A DNA stretch of 64,000 nt from an uncultured Dehalococcoidia bacterium (GTDB lineage: Bacteria > Chloroflexota > Dehalococcoidia > Lucifugimonadales > Lucifugimonadaceae), in assembly GCA_958295935.1 (NCBI GenBank), contig OY282385.1:558001-622000 (forward strand). Reading direction: 5' to 3'. The notes beneath the pieces are model-generated. The model ran no database searches, was not told the DNA's origin, and saw only the letters and a list, made by a program, of their open reading frames with translations. Position 1 is the first letter of the stretch. Each line of letters begins with the position of its first letter. Shown piece after piece: positions 1 through 3,805 of the stretch. The translations under genes were made by a program, and so were the position numbers.

Positions 1-1064
1 AGAACCGTGCCTATTCCCGAACGTTCGCACGCCTGCACCACCCGCGCCACCTCCATGAAATCGTTACCGCCCGCATCCCACGTGACGATCGCTCCGTCCG
101 CCCCAAGATCACGCGCGATACGAGCAGCCTGGTTCGACTGTACGTTCTTTTCCCACTGCGCGCTCCACCTCGTGCGCACGGTTATCACCCCAAGGAAATT
201 GCACTCTCCGGCCATGTGACGGCGCAGCAAACCCAGCGTCACCGGATTGTTGACCATCTGCCAGCTGTAAGAGCCGCAGATCGCCCCGTCCAATATCTCA
301 GTCGGGCGCAAAGCCCAGGGAGGAGTCTGGCGCGTCAAGCCGTAGATAGCCGCTCCATACGCGCTCAGGCTGTTCGAGTAATGCTGGGGAGAGTTCATAC
401 ATGCAACGTATACGATGCCCGGAACGCCCTCGTTCAGCGGGAGGCTGCCCAGAAGCTCGGTCTCGTCAGGCTCCGCATGCAAAGTCGTAGCCGCAAGCAG
501 GTCAGACACCCGCAGCGCAGCCGCGTGTATCGCCTCGTTCTGGTCGTCCAGGTGCAGGGAAGGGCTAACCTCCATGATGAGGCACAGATGGTGCAAACCC
601 CCATAAGGAGACGCCTCAGCGCCGGGGCCGCTCATGTCGAACAAATTCGATCCGGGGCCGGCCGCACCCCCTGCCGCGCTCGCAGCAGGTTCAGCAGGGC
701 TGGAAAGCACATACGACTTGATAGGGCTGAGCGGAGTTACCGCCACGCCGGACATAAGGTTGGTAGCCCCCGTACCCACCGCAGTCACGGGCCGACCCGC
801 CGCGCCGGGGTAAACCTGCCCGGGGCCCGAAATCTTCACACGCGGCTCTATCACGTCCTTGATCGCAGTAACCCTCGCCGACTCACCGGGATGCACGAGC
901 TCCGACCGCAAACCCAAGATACGGGGATCCGACCTCACCGCAGAGTTCACCTGATCGAGCGACACGCTGAGAGCCCCCGACTCCAAAGATGTATCCGCTC
1001 CAAACTCCACGCTCCCAACCCTGAAAGTGTTTAGCCGGAGCATCTCGTCCACGACGGGTGTCAA
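1..1064 (-). CDS. grdE: GrdE-like glycine/sarcosine/betaine reductase component B proprotein (partial, runs off left edge)
   Basis: Component B of the glycine/sarcosine/betaine reductase family binds and activates the amine substrate. The reading frame is open from a TTG at 1064, preceded by AAGGGAG at 9 nt spacing, to the left edge; the in-frame GTG at 1052 and ATG at 1043 are alternative starts, and the ATG gives an N-terminus more like the family (MLRLNTFRVGSVEFG). Family landmarks seen are DVIEPRVKISGPGQVYPG, FDMSGPGAEASPYGG and PTEILDGAI..NNPV, followed by an HMAGECNFLGVI segment. No in-frame UGA occurs. Characterised GrdE is processed at an Asn-Cys bond just after the DGAI region to make a pyruvoyl group; here the region reads DGAICGSYSWQMVNNPV, shorter and without Asn-Cys, so processing is doubtful. 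It lies 3 bp after the selenoprotein FTR gene, in the same orientation. The C-terminus is outside the window. Confidence 0.85.
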   Translation of the reverse strand, partial: MTPVVDEMLRLNTFRVGSVEFGADTSLESGALSVSLDQVNSAVRSDPRILGLRSELVHPGESARVTAIKDVIEPRVKISGPGQVYPGAAGRPVTAVGTGATNLMSGVAVTPLSPIKSYVLSSPAEPAASAAGGAAGPGSNLFDMSGPGAEASPYGGLHHLCLIMEVSPSLHLDDQNEAIHAAALRVSDLLAATTLHAEPDETELLGSLPLNEGVPGIVYVACMNSPQHYSNSLSAYGAAIYGLTRQTPPWALRPTEILDGAICGSYSWQMVNNPVTLGLLRRHMAGECNFLGVITVRTRWSAQWEKNVQSNQAARIARDLGADGAIVTWDAGGNDFMEVARVVQACERSGIGTV

Positions 1065-1067
1065 GGA

Positions 1068-1505
1068 TTACGACTCCCTTCCACTCTCGCCGCGCTGCTT
1101 CGCCTTGGCGCTCGCCTTGGACTCATACTCCCCCTCGAAAAGACCGGTACCCCGAGGAACCGCCTCATCAATCGTCTGCTCGAACTCCTCACCTGCCGCA
1201 TATGAGCGAAGAAACTCCTCGCTTACGAAGAACATTCATATGCAAAATCCGTCACGGATGATGTCCTCGTGGTGACGGTCGCAGGGGCATATCTTCTTGC
1301 GATCCTCCACGGGATCGCCGCTCAGCGGCATTCAGGGACAGTAGCGGTAGCCGTGTTCCACCTGGTTTTCGGCCAGCCCCTCTTGCACCACCTTGACCAC
1401 CTCCGCATCCGGGAAAAACTCGTAAGGACCTCTTTCGACGTACTTCTCCGAAAATTTGACCGCCCCCTCAAAAGCCTTTTCCGGGCTCAACTTCTTTCTC
1501 GCCAT
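1068..1505 (-). CDS. Ferredoxin:thioredoxin reductase catalytic-subunit-like selenoprotein with two Sec residues (U58, U90)
   Basis: Translation from ATG 1505 (GGGGAG at 8 nt) gives 145 aa if two in-frame UGA codons (1332-1334 and 1236-1238) are read as selenocysteine. The protein then matches the FTR catalytic (beta) chain over its whole length: a helical N-terminus (KFSEKYVERGPY, VVQEGLAENQVEHGYRY), then C56-P-U58, C73-P-C75 and C88-I-U90, then MFFV. In plant and cyanobacterial FTR the motifs are CPC, CPC and CHC: the first Cys of motif 1, both of motif 2 and the first of motif 3 bind the 4Fe-4S cluster, and the other two form the redox disulfide. Both Sec residues replace exactly those two redox cysteines. 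Each UGA is followed by a SECIS-like hairpin. The TAA stop is 3 bp before grdE. I infer a cluster-linked selenenyl/diselenide reductase; its electron donor and partner are unknown. The UGA codons would otherwise look like nonsense mutations, but the homology continues through both. Confidence 0.9.
1205..1223 (-). promoter_or_regulatory. SECIS-like hairpin for the second UGA of the FTR-like gene
   Basis: Downstream of UGA 1236-1238, AGCGAGG can pair with TCTTCGCT's last seven bases in a 7-bp stem containing one G-U pair, leaving a five-base loop AGTTT. The loop starts 20 nt after the UGA and its second base is G. The geometry matches the other three hairpins of this cluster. Confidence 0.72.
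1299..1318 (-). promoter_or_regulatory. SECIS-like hairpin for the first UGA of the FTR-like gene
   Basis: Downstream of UGA 1332-1334, the mRNA can form GCGATCC / GGATCGC, a perfect 7-bp stem with a six-base loop CGTGGA. The loop begins 21 nt after the UGA and has G at its second position. This fits the usual bacterial SECIS description (loop about 16-37 nt from the UGA, G in the first two loop bases). It lies inside the coding sequence. Confidence 0.8.
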
Positions 1506-1559: not shown

Positions 1560-1913
1560 CTATTTGAATTGCGCCGACCTTAGACGCTCGTGCGCCTTGC
1601 ATGACATCTGTTTGAAGTGGTCCCGCTGTCGCATGAGACGATCCAGCAACGCAGGCATCGCCCGCTCCAAGTCCCCCTCTGTCTTGTCGGAAGCTACCTC
1701 CACGCTCAACACCGCAGAGGTGCCGCACCCGCAACGCGCTCCGAAGTAGACCTTCTGGAAACCCATACCCCCGGGCGTGGAAACGTTGAGACGCGGCAGA
1801 GGAATCAATCCGTGACCATCCGGCAGCGCCGCCGTCACAACCTCCATTATCCGATTGCGGTCCATCATCTGATCACAAGAATCGTACCTTACCCGCGCAA
1901 ACCGCGCATCCAA
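1560..1913 (-). CDS. Conserved-looking Cys-containing protein of the selenoprotein cluster, function unknown
   Basis: A 117-aa soluble protein from TTG 1913; the frame stays open a little further upstream (to a stop at 1950-1952), so the start is uncertain. I do not recognise a family. Visible features: an N-terminal segment RVRYDSCDQMMDR with Cys13, a Gly/Pro-rich middle (LIPLPRLNVSTPGGMGFQ), a C61-G-C63-G motif followed by a beta-strand-like TSAVLSVEVA, and Cys105 in a helical C-terminus. It ends with TAG 54 bp before the FTR-like gene, in the same orientation, so the two are probably cotranscribed. The four cysteines and the position suggest a thiol partner or metal-binding accessory of the FTR-like selenoprotein, but that is inference only. 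Confidence 0.65.
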   Translation of the reverse strand: MDARFARVRYDSCDQMMDRNRIMEVVTAALPDGHGLIPLPRLNVSTPGGMGFQKVYFGARCGCGTSAVLSVEVASDKTEGDLERAMPALLDRLMRQRDHFKQMSCKAHERLRSAQFK

Positions 1914-2010: not shown

Positions 2011-2259
2011 TTGATCGAACAAAATGGCATCAAGGTATTTACGTCGAACGGCTGAGGCCCATGCCACATGGTGAAAGTGTACCTTTCACGAAAAGGCGTG
2101 CCCTTCACAGAGCACAACGTCTCACTCGACGATGAAGCGACGAAGTTCCTCCTGGCAGCAGGATACTCCTCCACGCCAGTCACCTTCATAGGTGAGCAGC
2201 AAGTCGTCGGCTACAAGCCCAAGGATATCGACGCCGCTCTGGCCGCCGCAGGGGCCTAG
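2011..2259 (+). CDS. Selenocysteine-containing glutaredoxin-like protein (UGPC active site)
   Basis: Starting at TTG 2011 (GGAGG at 1997-2001, 9 nt spacing) and reading the in-frame UGA at 2053-2055 as Sec gives an 82-aa glutaredoxin/NrdH-like protein. The N-terminal strand IKVFTSNG leads directly into U15-G-P-C18, the position of the CxxC redox motif. It is followed by a helix and the GVPFTEHNVSLDD strand, then the glutaredoxin cis-Pro and glycine landmarks (SSTPVTFIG, QQVVGYKPKDIDAAL). Without UGA readthrough the protein could start only at ATG 2068 and would lose the active site and first strand, an implausible fold. A SECIS-like hairpin follows the UGA. Sec-containing glutaredoxins are known in bacteria. 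It is divergent from the FTR/grdE genes and followed 106 bp later by an alpha/beta-hydrolase gene. Its likely job is reducing selenenyl-sulfides or disulfides in this cluster (inference). Confidence 0.9.
2071..2089 (+). promoter_or_regulatory. SECIS-like hairpin of the Sec-glutaredoxin gene
   Basis: GTGAAAG / CTTTCAC forms a perfect 7-bp stem with a five-base loop TGTAC, the loop starting 23 nt after UGA 2053-2055 and with G in position 2. Spacer and stem lengths (15 + 7) are identical to the hairpin in grdA. Confidence 0.85.
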
Positions 2260-3189: not shown

Positions 3190-3654
3190 TCAGGCCCCGT
3201 TGCCCTCTCTCACCTTCTTCACCGCCCCCCGGATCTCATCCAACTCCAATACCATCTCGGCCACCCCAACCTGCTCGTCGTACACCGAGGCGTCCGCCTG
3301 CTGCTTCACAGCGTCCTCGGTAACGTGGAAAACCGGCAACCCAAGAGCCGTCCCCGCAAGAGCACCCGCCCAAGAGGGGTCTCCGTCCACCATGGTCGTC
3401 GCGTAAAGCTCAGAACTCTCTGCCGTGGGCGTCCCCAAGATCACCACGAGGTCCTCCGTGCCGACCTTGTCCACAGTCCGCTTGATCTCATCTTGACCTT
3501 CCAGGTCAAGCGCTCCAGCGGAAGTTCAGACGAAACAGTGGGTTACCTCCAGCACAACCTCCGCGCCCGCAGAGCGAGCCACCGACGCTATCGAATCCCC
3601 CTGTATCCCATCCCGTTCACCCAACGCAATCACCCGTTTGCCCTTGAGTTCCAA
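3190..3654 (-). CDS. grdA: Glycine reductase complex selenoprotein A
   Basis: GrdA is the small selenoprotein that carries the Se-carboxymethyl intermediate between components B and C of glycine/sarcosine/betaine reductase. Reading from TTG 3654 (AAAAGGAG, about 7 nt spacing) through the in-frame UGA at 3526-3528 gives 154 aa, close to the usual length of about 158. The Sec is residue 43 in CFVUTSAGALDLE, the diagnostic GrdA motif (CFVUTAAG in characterised proteins, where Sec is residue 44). Further family segments are LVVILGTPTAESSEL, TMVDGDPSWAGALAG and SVYDEQVGVAEMVL. The natural stop is also UGA (3190-3192) but is not needed for homology. It lies 151 bp after grdC on the same strand. A caller ignoring Sec would start at an internal codon near 3474 and lose the active residue. 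Confidence 0.95.
3492..3510 (-). promoter_or_regulatory. SECIS-like hairpin of grdA
   Basis: After UGA 3526-3528 a 15-nt spacer is followed by CTTGACC / GGTCAAG, a perfect 7-bp stem closing a five-base loop TGGAA with G in position 2. The loop starts 23 nt after the UGA. Its position and form agree with bacterial SECIS rules and with the hairpin of the Sec-glutaredoxin gene. Confidence 0.87.
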
Positions 3655-3805
3655 TTCAACTCTCCTTTTCCATCTACGCAGCGCAGTTCAGATCGACGGA
3701 TGTTCCACCCTGCCGCACCTGCTCCCCAAACCCGACGACCCAATCCGCCGATGCCAGTCAACCGCTCCCCGCATAACCCTCAGACCATGCCAAGACGTTT
3801 CCCAT

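Follow-up and report, generated by a model that had tools for sequence, protein, structure and literature searches.

The ferredoxin:thioredoxin reductases (FTR) of plants and cyanobacteria (PDB structures 1dj7, 2pu9 and 7bzk) are heterodimers of a catalytic and a variable subunit that act on thioredoxins by use of a disulfide lying beside a 4Fe-4S cluster, and their second redox cysteine falls in a C-H-C motif. The same catalytic fold is found without the FTR variable subunit in an archaeal/bacterial branch, the ferredoxin:disulfide reductases (FDR). The Methanosarcina acetivorans FDR (4tpu) has cysteine at both redox sites (CPC and CYC), and we take its chain (named Rubredoxin in the PDB) to be longer than the protein described here and to carry a rubredoxin centre. 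In Desulfotalea psychrophila a glutaredoxin and an FDR, again with cysteine at the redox sites, form one polypeptide (7pwe). A chain running from ferredoxin through FDR and NrdH to ribonucleotide reductase (RNR) is given for Methanosarcina barkeri by Wei et al. 2015, as cited in the available text of PMC10910570.

Selenocysteine (Sec, U) forms of the FTR catalytic subunit are also on record. Zhang & Gladyshev 2008 (PMC2398784) described a pair of FTR selenoproteins from ocean metagenomes; one of them had two Sec residues exactly at the two redox-active cysteines together with a predicted SECIS element. A 2022 review lists a double-Sec FTR family (PMC9312934) and a 2026 review lists NF041072 with its CxU motif and two Sec residues (PMC13188914); the curated NCBIfam name of NF041072 is "FtrB family double-selenoprotein". 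Given these sources, the double-Sec FTR gene type is already known from sequence, and the newness implied by a preliminary description of the present DNA is not borne out. Its statement that no enzyme of this kind has been characterised still seems to hold for the literature searched, which contained no biochemistry and lay mostly outside subscription journals. The gene described below belongs to the same family as NF041072 and the GOS read JCVI_READ_1093012271142 (PMC2398784), all having Sec in place of both redox cysteines, and differs from them in nothing essential.

The window is the whole 64,000-nucleotide stretch of Dehalococcoidia DNA that was analysed. The plus-strand reading of 1068-1505 was meaningless, whereas on the minus strand a frame runs from an ATG at 1505 to a TAA stop at 1070..1068, the same limits that the preliminary description had given. 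Under translation table 11 this frame is interrupted by two TGA triplets, at codons 58 and 90, and with UGA read as U its motifs are C56-P-U58, C73-P-C75 and C88-I-U90. The gene, called ftrB-UU below, and its elements are as follows.

1068..1505, minus strand: ftrB-UU, FTR/FDR catalytic subunit with two predicted selenocysteines, 145 residues
1332..1334, minus strand: TGA codon 58, predicted Sec of the first redox site (C-P-U), under the nucleophilic Cys of the FTR disulfide
1236..1238, minus strand: TGA codon 90, predicted Sec of the second redox site (C-I-U)
1299..1318, minus strand: SECIS-like hairpin 1, 7-bp stem GCGATCC/GGATCGC with loop CGTGGA, 13 nt after the first UGA
1206..1222, minus strand: SECIS-like hairpin 2, 7-bp stem around loop GTT, 13 nt after the second UGA

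With C put for U, the product matched Pfam FeThRed_B (PF02943) at 3.9e-22 (78.7 bits versus a gathering score of 22) over residues 13-101, a span that passes through both UGAs, and NCBIfam NF041072 (FtrB_double_U) at 2.7e-67 (224.1 bits, curated cut-off 160 bits) over positions 1-121 of 121. The solved FTR/FDR chains likewise aligned with it through both UGAs; U58 coincides with the final Cys of their first C-P-C motif and U90 with the final Cys of their last C-x-C motif. In the alignment of 43 sequences with the solved chains all four cluster-ligand cysteines and both redox positions were in register, the redox pair being Sec in ftrB-UU. The preliminary description had proposed FTR homology continuing through both UGAs, Sec at both redox positions and cluster-ligand positions for the four other cysteines, and each of these proposals is upheld by the alignments.

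Formally, table 11 makes both UGAs stops, and one could suppose that they are true stops or sequencing errors in a decaying or truncated FTR gene. Conservation weighs heavily against that reading. Among 393 genomes of the class there were 25 matches above the NF041072 cut-off, and every one contained exactly two TGA codons. Scanning named genome contigs independently yielded 58 double-Sec loci, all from Dehalococcoidia, Chloroflexi/Chloroflexota or SAR202, a set that overlaps in part with the 25 matches of the class draw. These 58 plus the window make up the 59 loci read individually; across their many assemblies TGA stood at both sites in 59/59 and Cys at either redox site in 0/59, a pattern far beyond chance. 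Median pN/pS came to 0.305 ahead of the first UGA, was down to 0.062 in the stretch separating the two and stood at 0.079 over the 11 codons that follow the second; hence the parts beyond each UGA are translated and under strong purifying selection. A phylum-wide draw of 400 genomes (E 1e-40) added no further double-Sec FTR; this sample was sparse and missed double-Sec genomes known from the class draw, so it sets no limit to where such genes occur.

The hairpins provide a second line of evidence against stops or errors. Both stems start at the same distance, 13 nt, from their UGA, and their codons are unusual choices in genes whose third positions elsewhere are mostly G or C. The codon signature consists of Asp GAT (24/25 and 22/25) in hairpin 1 and of Glu GAA (21/24), Phe TTT (16/18) and Leu CTT (24/24) in hairpin 2. 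Stem pairing reached 97% and 95%, well in excess of that in slid controls, with almost no covariation. As the stems hardly vary, covariation was uninformative, and we relied on synonymous-codon shuffles and the codon signature instead. Against such shuffles the mean folding z was -1.55 for hairpin 1 and -1.63 for hairpin 2; ten control windows put through the same test fell between -0.48 and +0.18, and an eleventh, which overlaps hairpin 2, gave -1.44 as expected. Rfam at the gathering threshold returned no match in the window.

The genome, a single contig of 2.75 Mb, has a complete Sec machinery: SelA (516 bits), SelB (337 bits), SelD (381 bits) and a tRNA-Sec (the selC product) with anticodon tca. 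Together with the existence of Cys homologues and of TGA at both sites in every locus read, the presence of selA, selB, selC and selD leaves intact the preliminary description's case for Sec. That the UGAs of ftrB-UU are stops or errors is therefore exceedingly improbable. We consider it just as improbable that this organism has reassigned UGA to another residue such as Trp, a proposal for which nothing speaks beyond the in-frame UGAs themselves. In the genes examined (FTR and glutaredoxin) these fall at Cys-equivalent redox sites with SECIS-like hairpins after them, and tRNA-Sec and a dedicated SelB are encoded in the genome. The sequences establish the two conserved UGAs with their SECIS-like elements, the Sec machinery, the family and fold, the Sec positions and the conserved link to a glutaredoxin gene described below; in the cell, Sec would be inserted at both UGAs. 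Separately, the SelD gene of this genome (G000:C1:970798-971724) itself contains one in-frame TGA.

We then asked which branch of the fold the protein resembles. An AlphaFold model built on 43 relatives had a mean pLDDT of 82 (a first model on a shallow alignment, pLDDT 63, was set aside). All good PDB matches to it were FDR or FTR structures, with Z values of 9.8-12.0, the next unrelated entry being at 3.6. The best was the Desulfotalea glutaredoxin/FDR fusion 7pwe (VIA Z 12.0, 101 residues, 2.4 A), followed by the Methanosarcina FDR 4tpu (Z 11.0, 102 residues, 3.0 A), and the plant and cyanobacterial FTR structures, which share the catalytic fold, the order of the six positions and the disulfide beside the cluster, gave Z 9.8-10.7. 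As Z values within 1 of each other count as tied, the structural comparison by itself barely tells FDR from FTR. By sequence the best PDB matches were 4tpu (2.7e-12) and 7pwe (6.3e-10), versus 5.7e-07 for plant FTR. In a tree of 69 rows, limited by long branches and few columns, the double-Sec proteins formed one clade (98/91) grouped with FDR-type rows (98/94). The FTR variable (alpha) subunit, PF02941, had no match in this genome, estimated to be 95% complete, and a Synechococcus control was positive. The protein thus appears nearest the FDR type. It departs from 4tpu and 7pwe in having Sec rather than Cys at the redox sites, and from plant and cyanobacterial FTR in its C-I-U in place of C-H-C.

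The neighbourhood of ftrB-UU contains a second candidate redox selenoprotein and a set of glycine/sarcosine/betaine reductase genes, the latter in what is a Dehalococcoidia/SAR202-type genome.

2011..2259, plus strand: glutaredoxin/NrdH/YruB-like selenoprotein with U-G-P-C, TGA at 2053..2055, probable partner
2071..2089, plus strand: SECIS-like hairpin of the U-G-P-C glutaredoxin gene, after its UGA
1560..1913, minus strand: conserved small open reading frame (FGARCGCGTSAV...) between ftrB and the glutaredoxin gene
3..1064, continuing to L002:9658, minus strand: PF09338 component-B subunit
3190..3657, minus strand: GrdA selenoprotein with in-frame UGA, NF040748, 190 bits
3809..5248, minus strand: GrdC-beta, NF040746, 587 bits

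The 2011..2259 product matched Pfam Glutaredoxin at 1.8e-13, and the YruB, NrdH and Uxx-star models matched below their cut-offs. Its hairpin had a mean z of -1.64 against synonymous-codon shuffles over 43 loci. The U-G-P-C glutaredoxin gene adjoins ftrB-UU in 44 of the 59 loci; in most of these cases it follows immediately downstream in the same orientation. In the window the two genes are divergent with one small open reading frame between them, and hence are linked there but not co-transcribed. That frame (1560..1913) has no Pfam or NCBIfam match, and its relatives lie upstream of ftrB in several other double-Sec loci. Class-wide, the ten best matches to the U-G-P-C glutaredoxin (79 bits or more) all came from genomes with a double-Sec FTR, exactly ten in number. 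Among FDR-type relatives having Cys or a single Sec, a Cys glutaredoxin gene lies directly upstream in 23/24 loci, versus 0/19 for the classical C-H-C/C-H-U relatives. These linkages, the 7pwe fusion, which physically joins the same pair of proteins, and the M. barkeri ferredoxin-FDR-NrdH-RNR chain make the neighbouring glutaredoxin the most likely substrate, likelier than a classical thioredoxin.

Our main reading, to which we give a probability of about 0.7, is that ftrB-UU encodes an FDR-branch, ferredoxin-dependent reductase with a 4Fe-4S cluster and a Sec58-Sec90 pair, the most likely substrate being the U-G-P-C glutaredoxin. Unlikely, though deserving more weight than stops or reassignment, is the proposal that the same double-Sec reductase acts on thioredoxin or another selenoprotein, such as protein A of glycine reductase, the glutaredoxin being a mere genomic neighbour. 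Classical FTR does reduce thioredoxins; in the window the GrdA (NF040748) and GrdC genes lie less than 4 kb from ftrB-UU, and in 15 of the 59 double-Sec loci no U-G-P-C glutaredoxin gene was seen nearby, some of these contigs ending close by. Against this stand the recurrence of the glutaredoxin link in most double-Sec loci and, in its Cys form, in nearly all FDR-type relatives, and the fact that in the closest solved structure a glutaredoxin is joined to the FDR. Protein A in particular is disfavoured, the Grd genes not being among those common to other double-Sec loci, and we set aside a functional tie of ftrB-UU to glycine reductase on finding that GrdA, GrdC and the component-B-type gene are not shared in this way.

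Under the main reading, with a glutaredoxin as the substrate, catalysis by the putative diselenide reductase would be analogous to that of FTR. Cys56, Cys73, Cys75 and Cys88 would ligate the 4Fe-4S cluster and Sec58-Sec90 would be the substrate-reducing pair. Reduced ferredoxin, the presumed donor, would first pass one electron to the cluster with opening of the Se-Se bond. With Sec90 retained at the cluster, Sec58 would then attack the substrate's oxidised active site, and a second electron would free the product. The reduced U-G-P-C glutaredoxin could then deliver electrons to RNR or other thiol/selenol proteins. The genome has a class II RNR, which is one candidate end target of the glutaredoxin, and a TrxB-like flavoprotein scoring 260.7 bits, below the curated TrxR cut-off of 343.45. 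The much lower redox potential and faster exchange that the preliminary description expected of such a diselenide are a chemically reasonable prediction. Fe-S clusters that cleave disulfides are rare, and a natural diselenide form makes the role of selenium in one-electron bond cleavage directly addressable.

Relatives with a single TGA bear on how the Sec pair arose. All 18 that we read (L068-L085) have C-P-C plus C-x-U, so that Sec occupies the second redox site alone; 14 are C-H-U proteins of the classical branch and four are C-Y-U proteins of the FDR branch. On its starred branches the tree requires the single-Sec label to have changed twice or more, so second-site Sec probably arose more than once, to judge by these sequences. 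First-site Sec was seen only jointly with second-site Sec. The residue preceding the second redox position also changes: it is His in FTR and Tyr or Phe in FDR types, versus Ile in 57 and Leu in two of the 59 double-Sec proteins. The His before the second redox Cys of FTR is a proposed catalytic acid/base, and the selenol of Sec is ionised at neutral pH. It is plausible that loss of the His is tied to Sec.

An extended proposal, to which we give even odds, is that the double-Sec reductase and the U-G-P-C glutaredoxin constitute, in Dehalococcoidia, a relay with three selenium atoms that is driven by ferredoxin; a 4Fe-4S cluster would cleave the diselenide, and Sec would have removed the need for His, Tyr or Phe before the second redox residue. 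In the accessible parts of the literature examined we found no description of the glutaredoxin link, the second-site-only Sec of the single-Sec relatives, the Ile/Leu change or the FDR-type affinity. The function becomes testable through the neighbouring selenoglutaredoxin, the invariant second-site Sec and the Ile/Leu replacement, with the glutaredoxin as a substrate and the Cys,Cys, Cys,Sec and Sec,Sec series of related bacteria as natural controls. As a separate observation, one genome (L042, G025:C120) carries both a double-Sec FTR (at ~1100) and a classical Cys FTR (at ~1640), within ~0.6 kb of each other on opposite strands.
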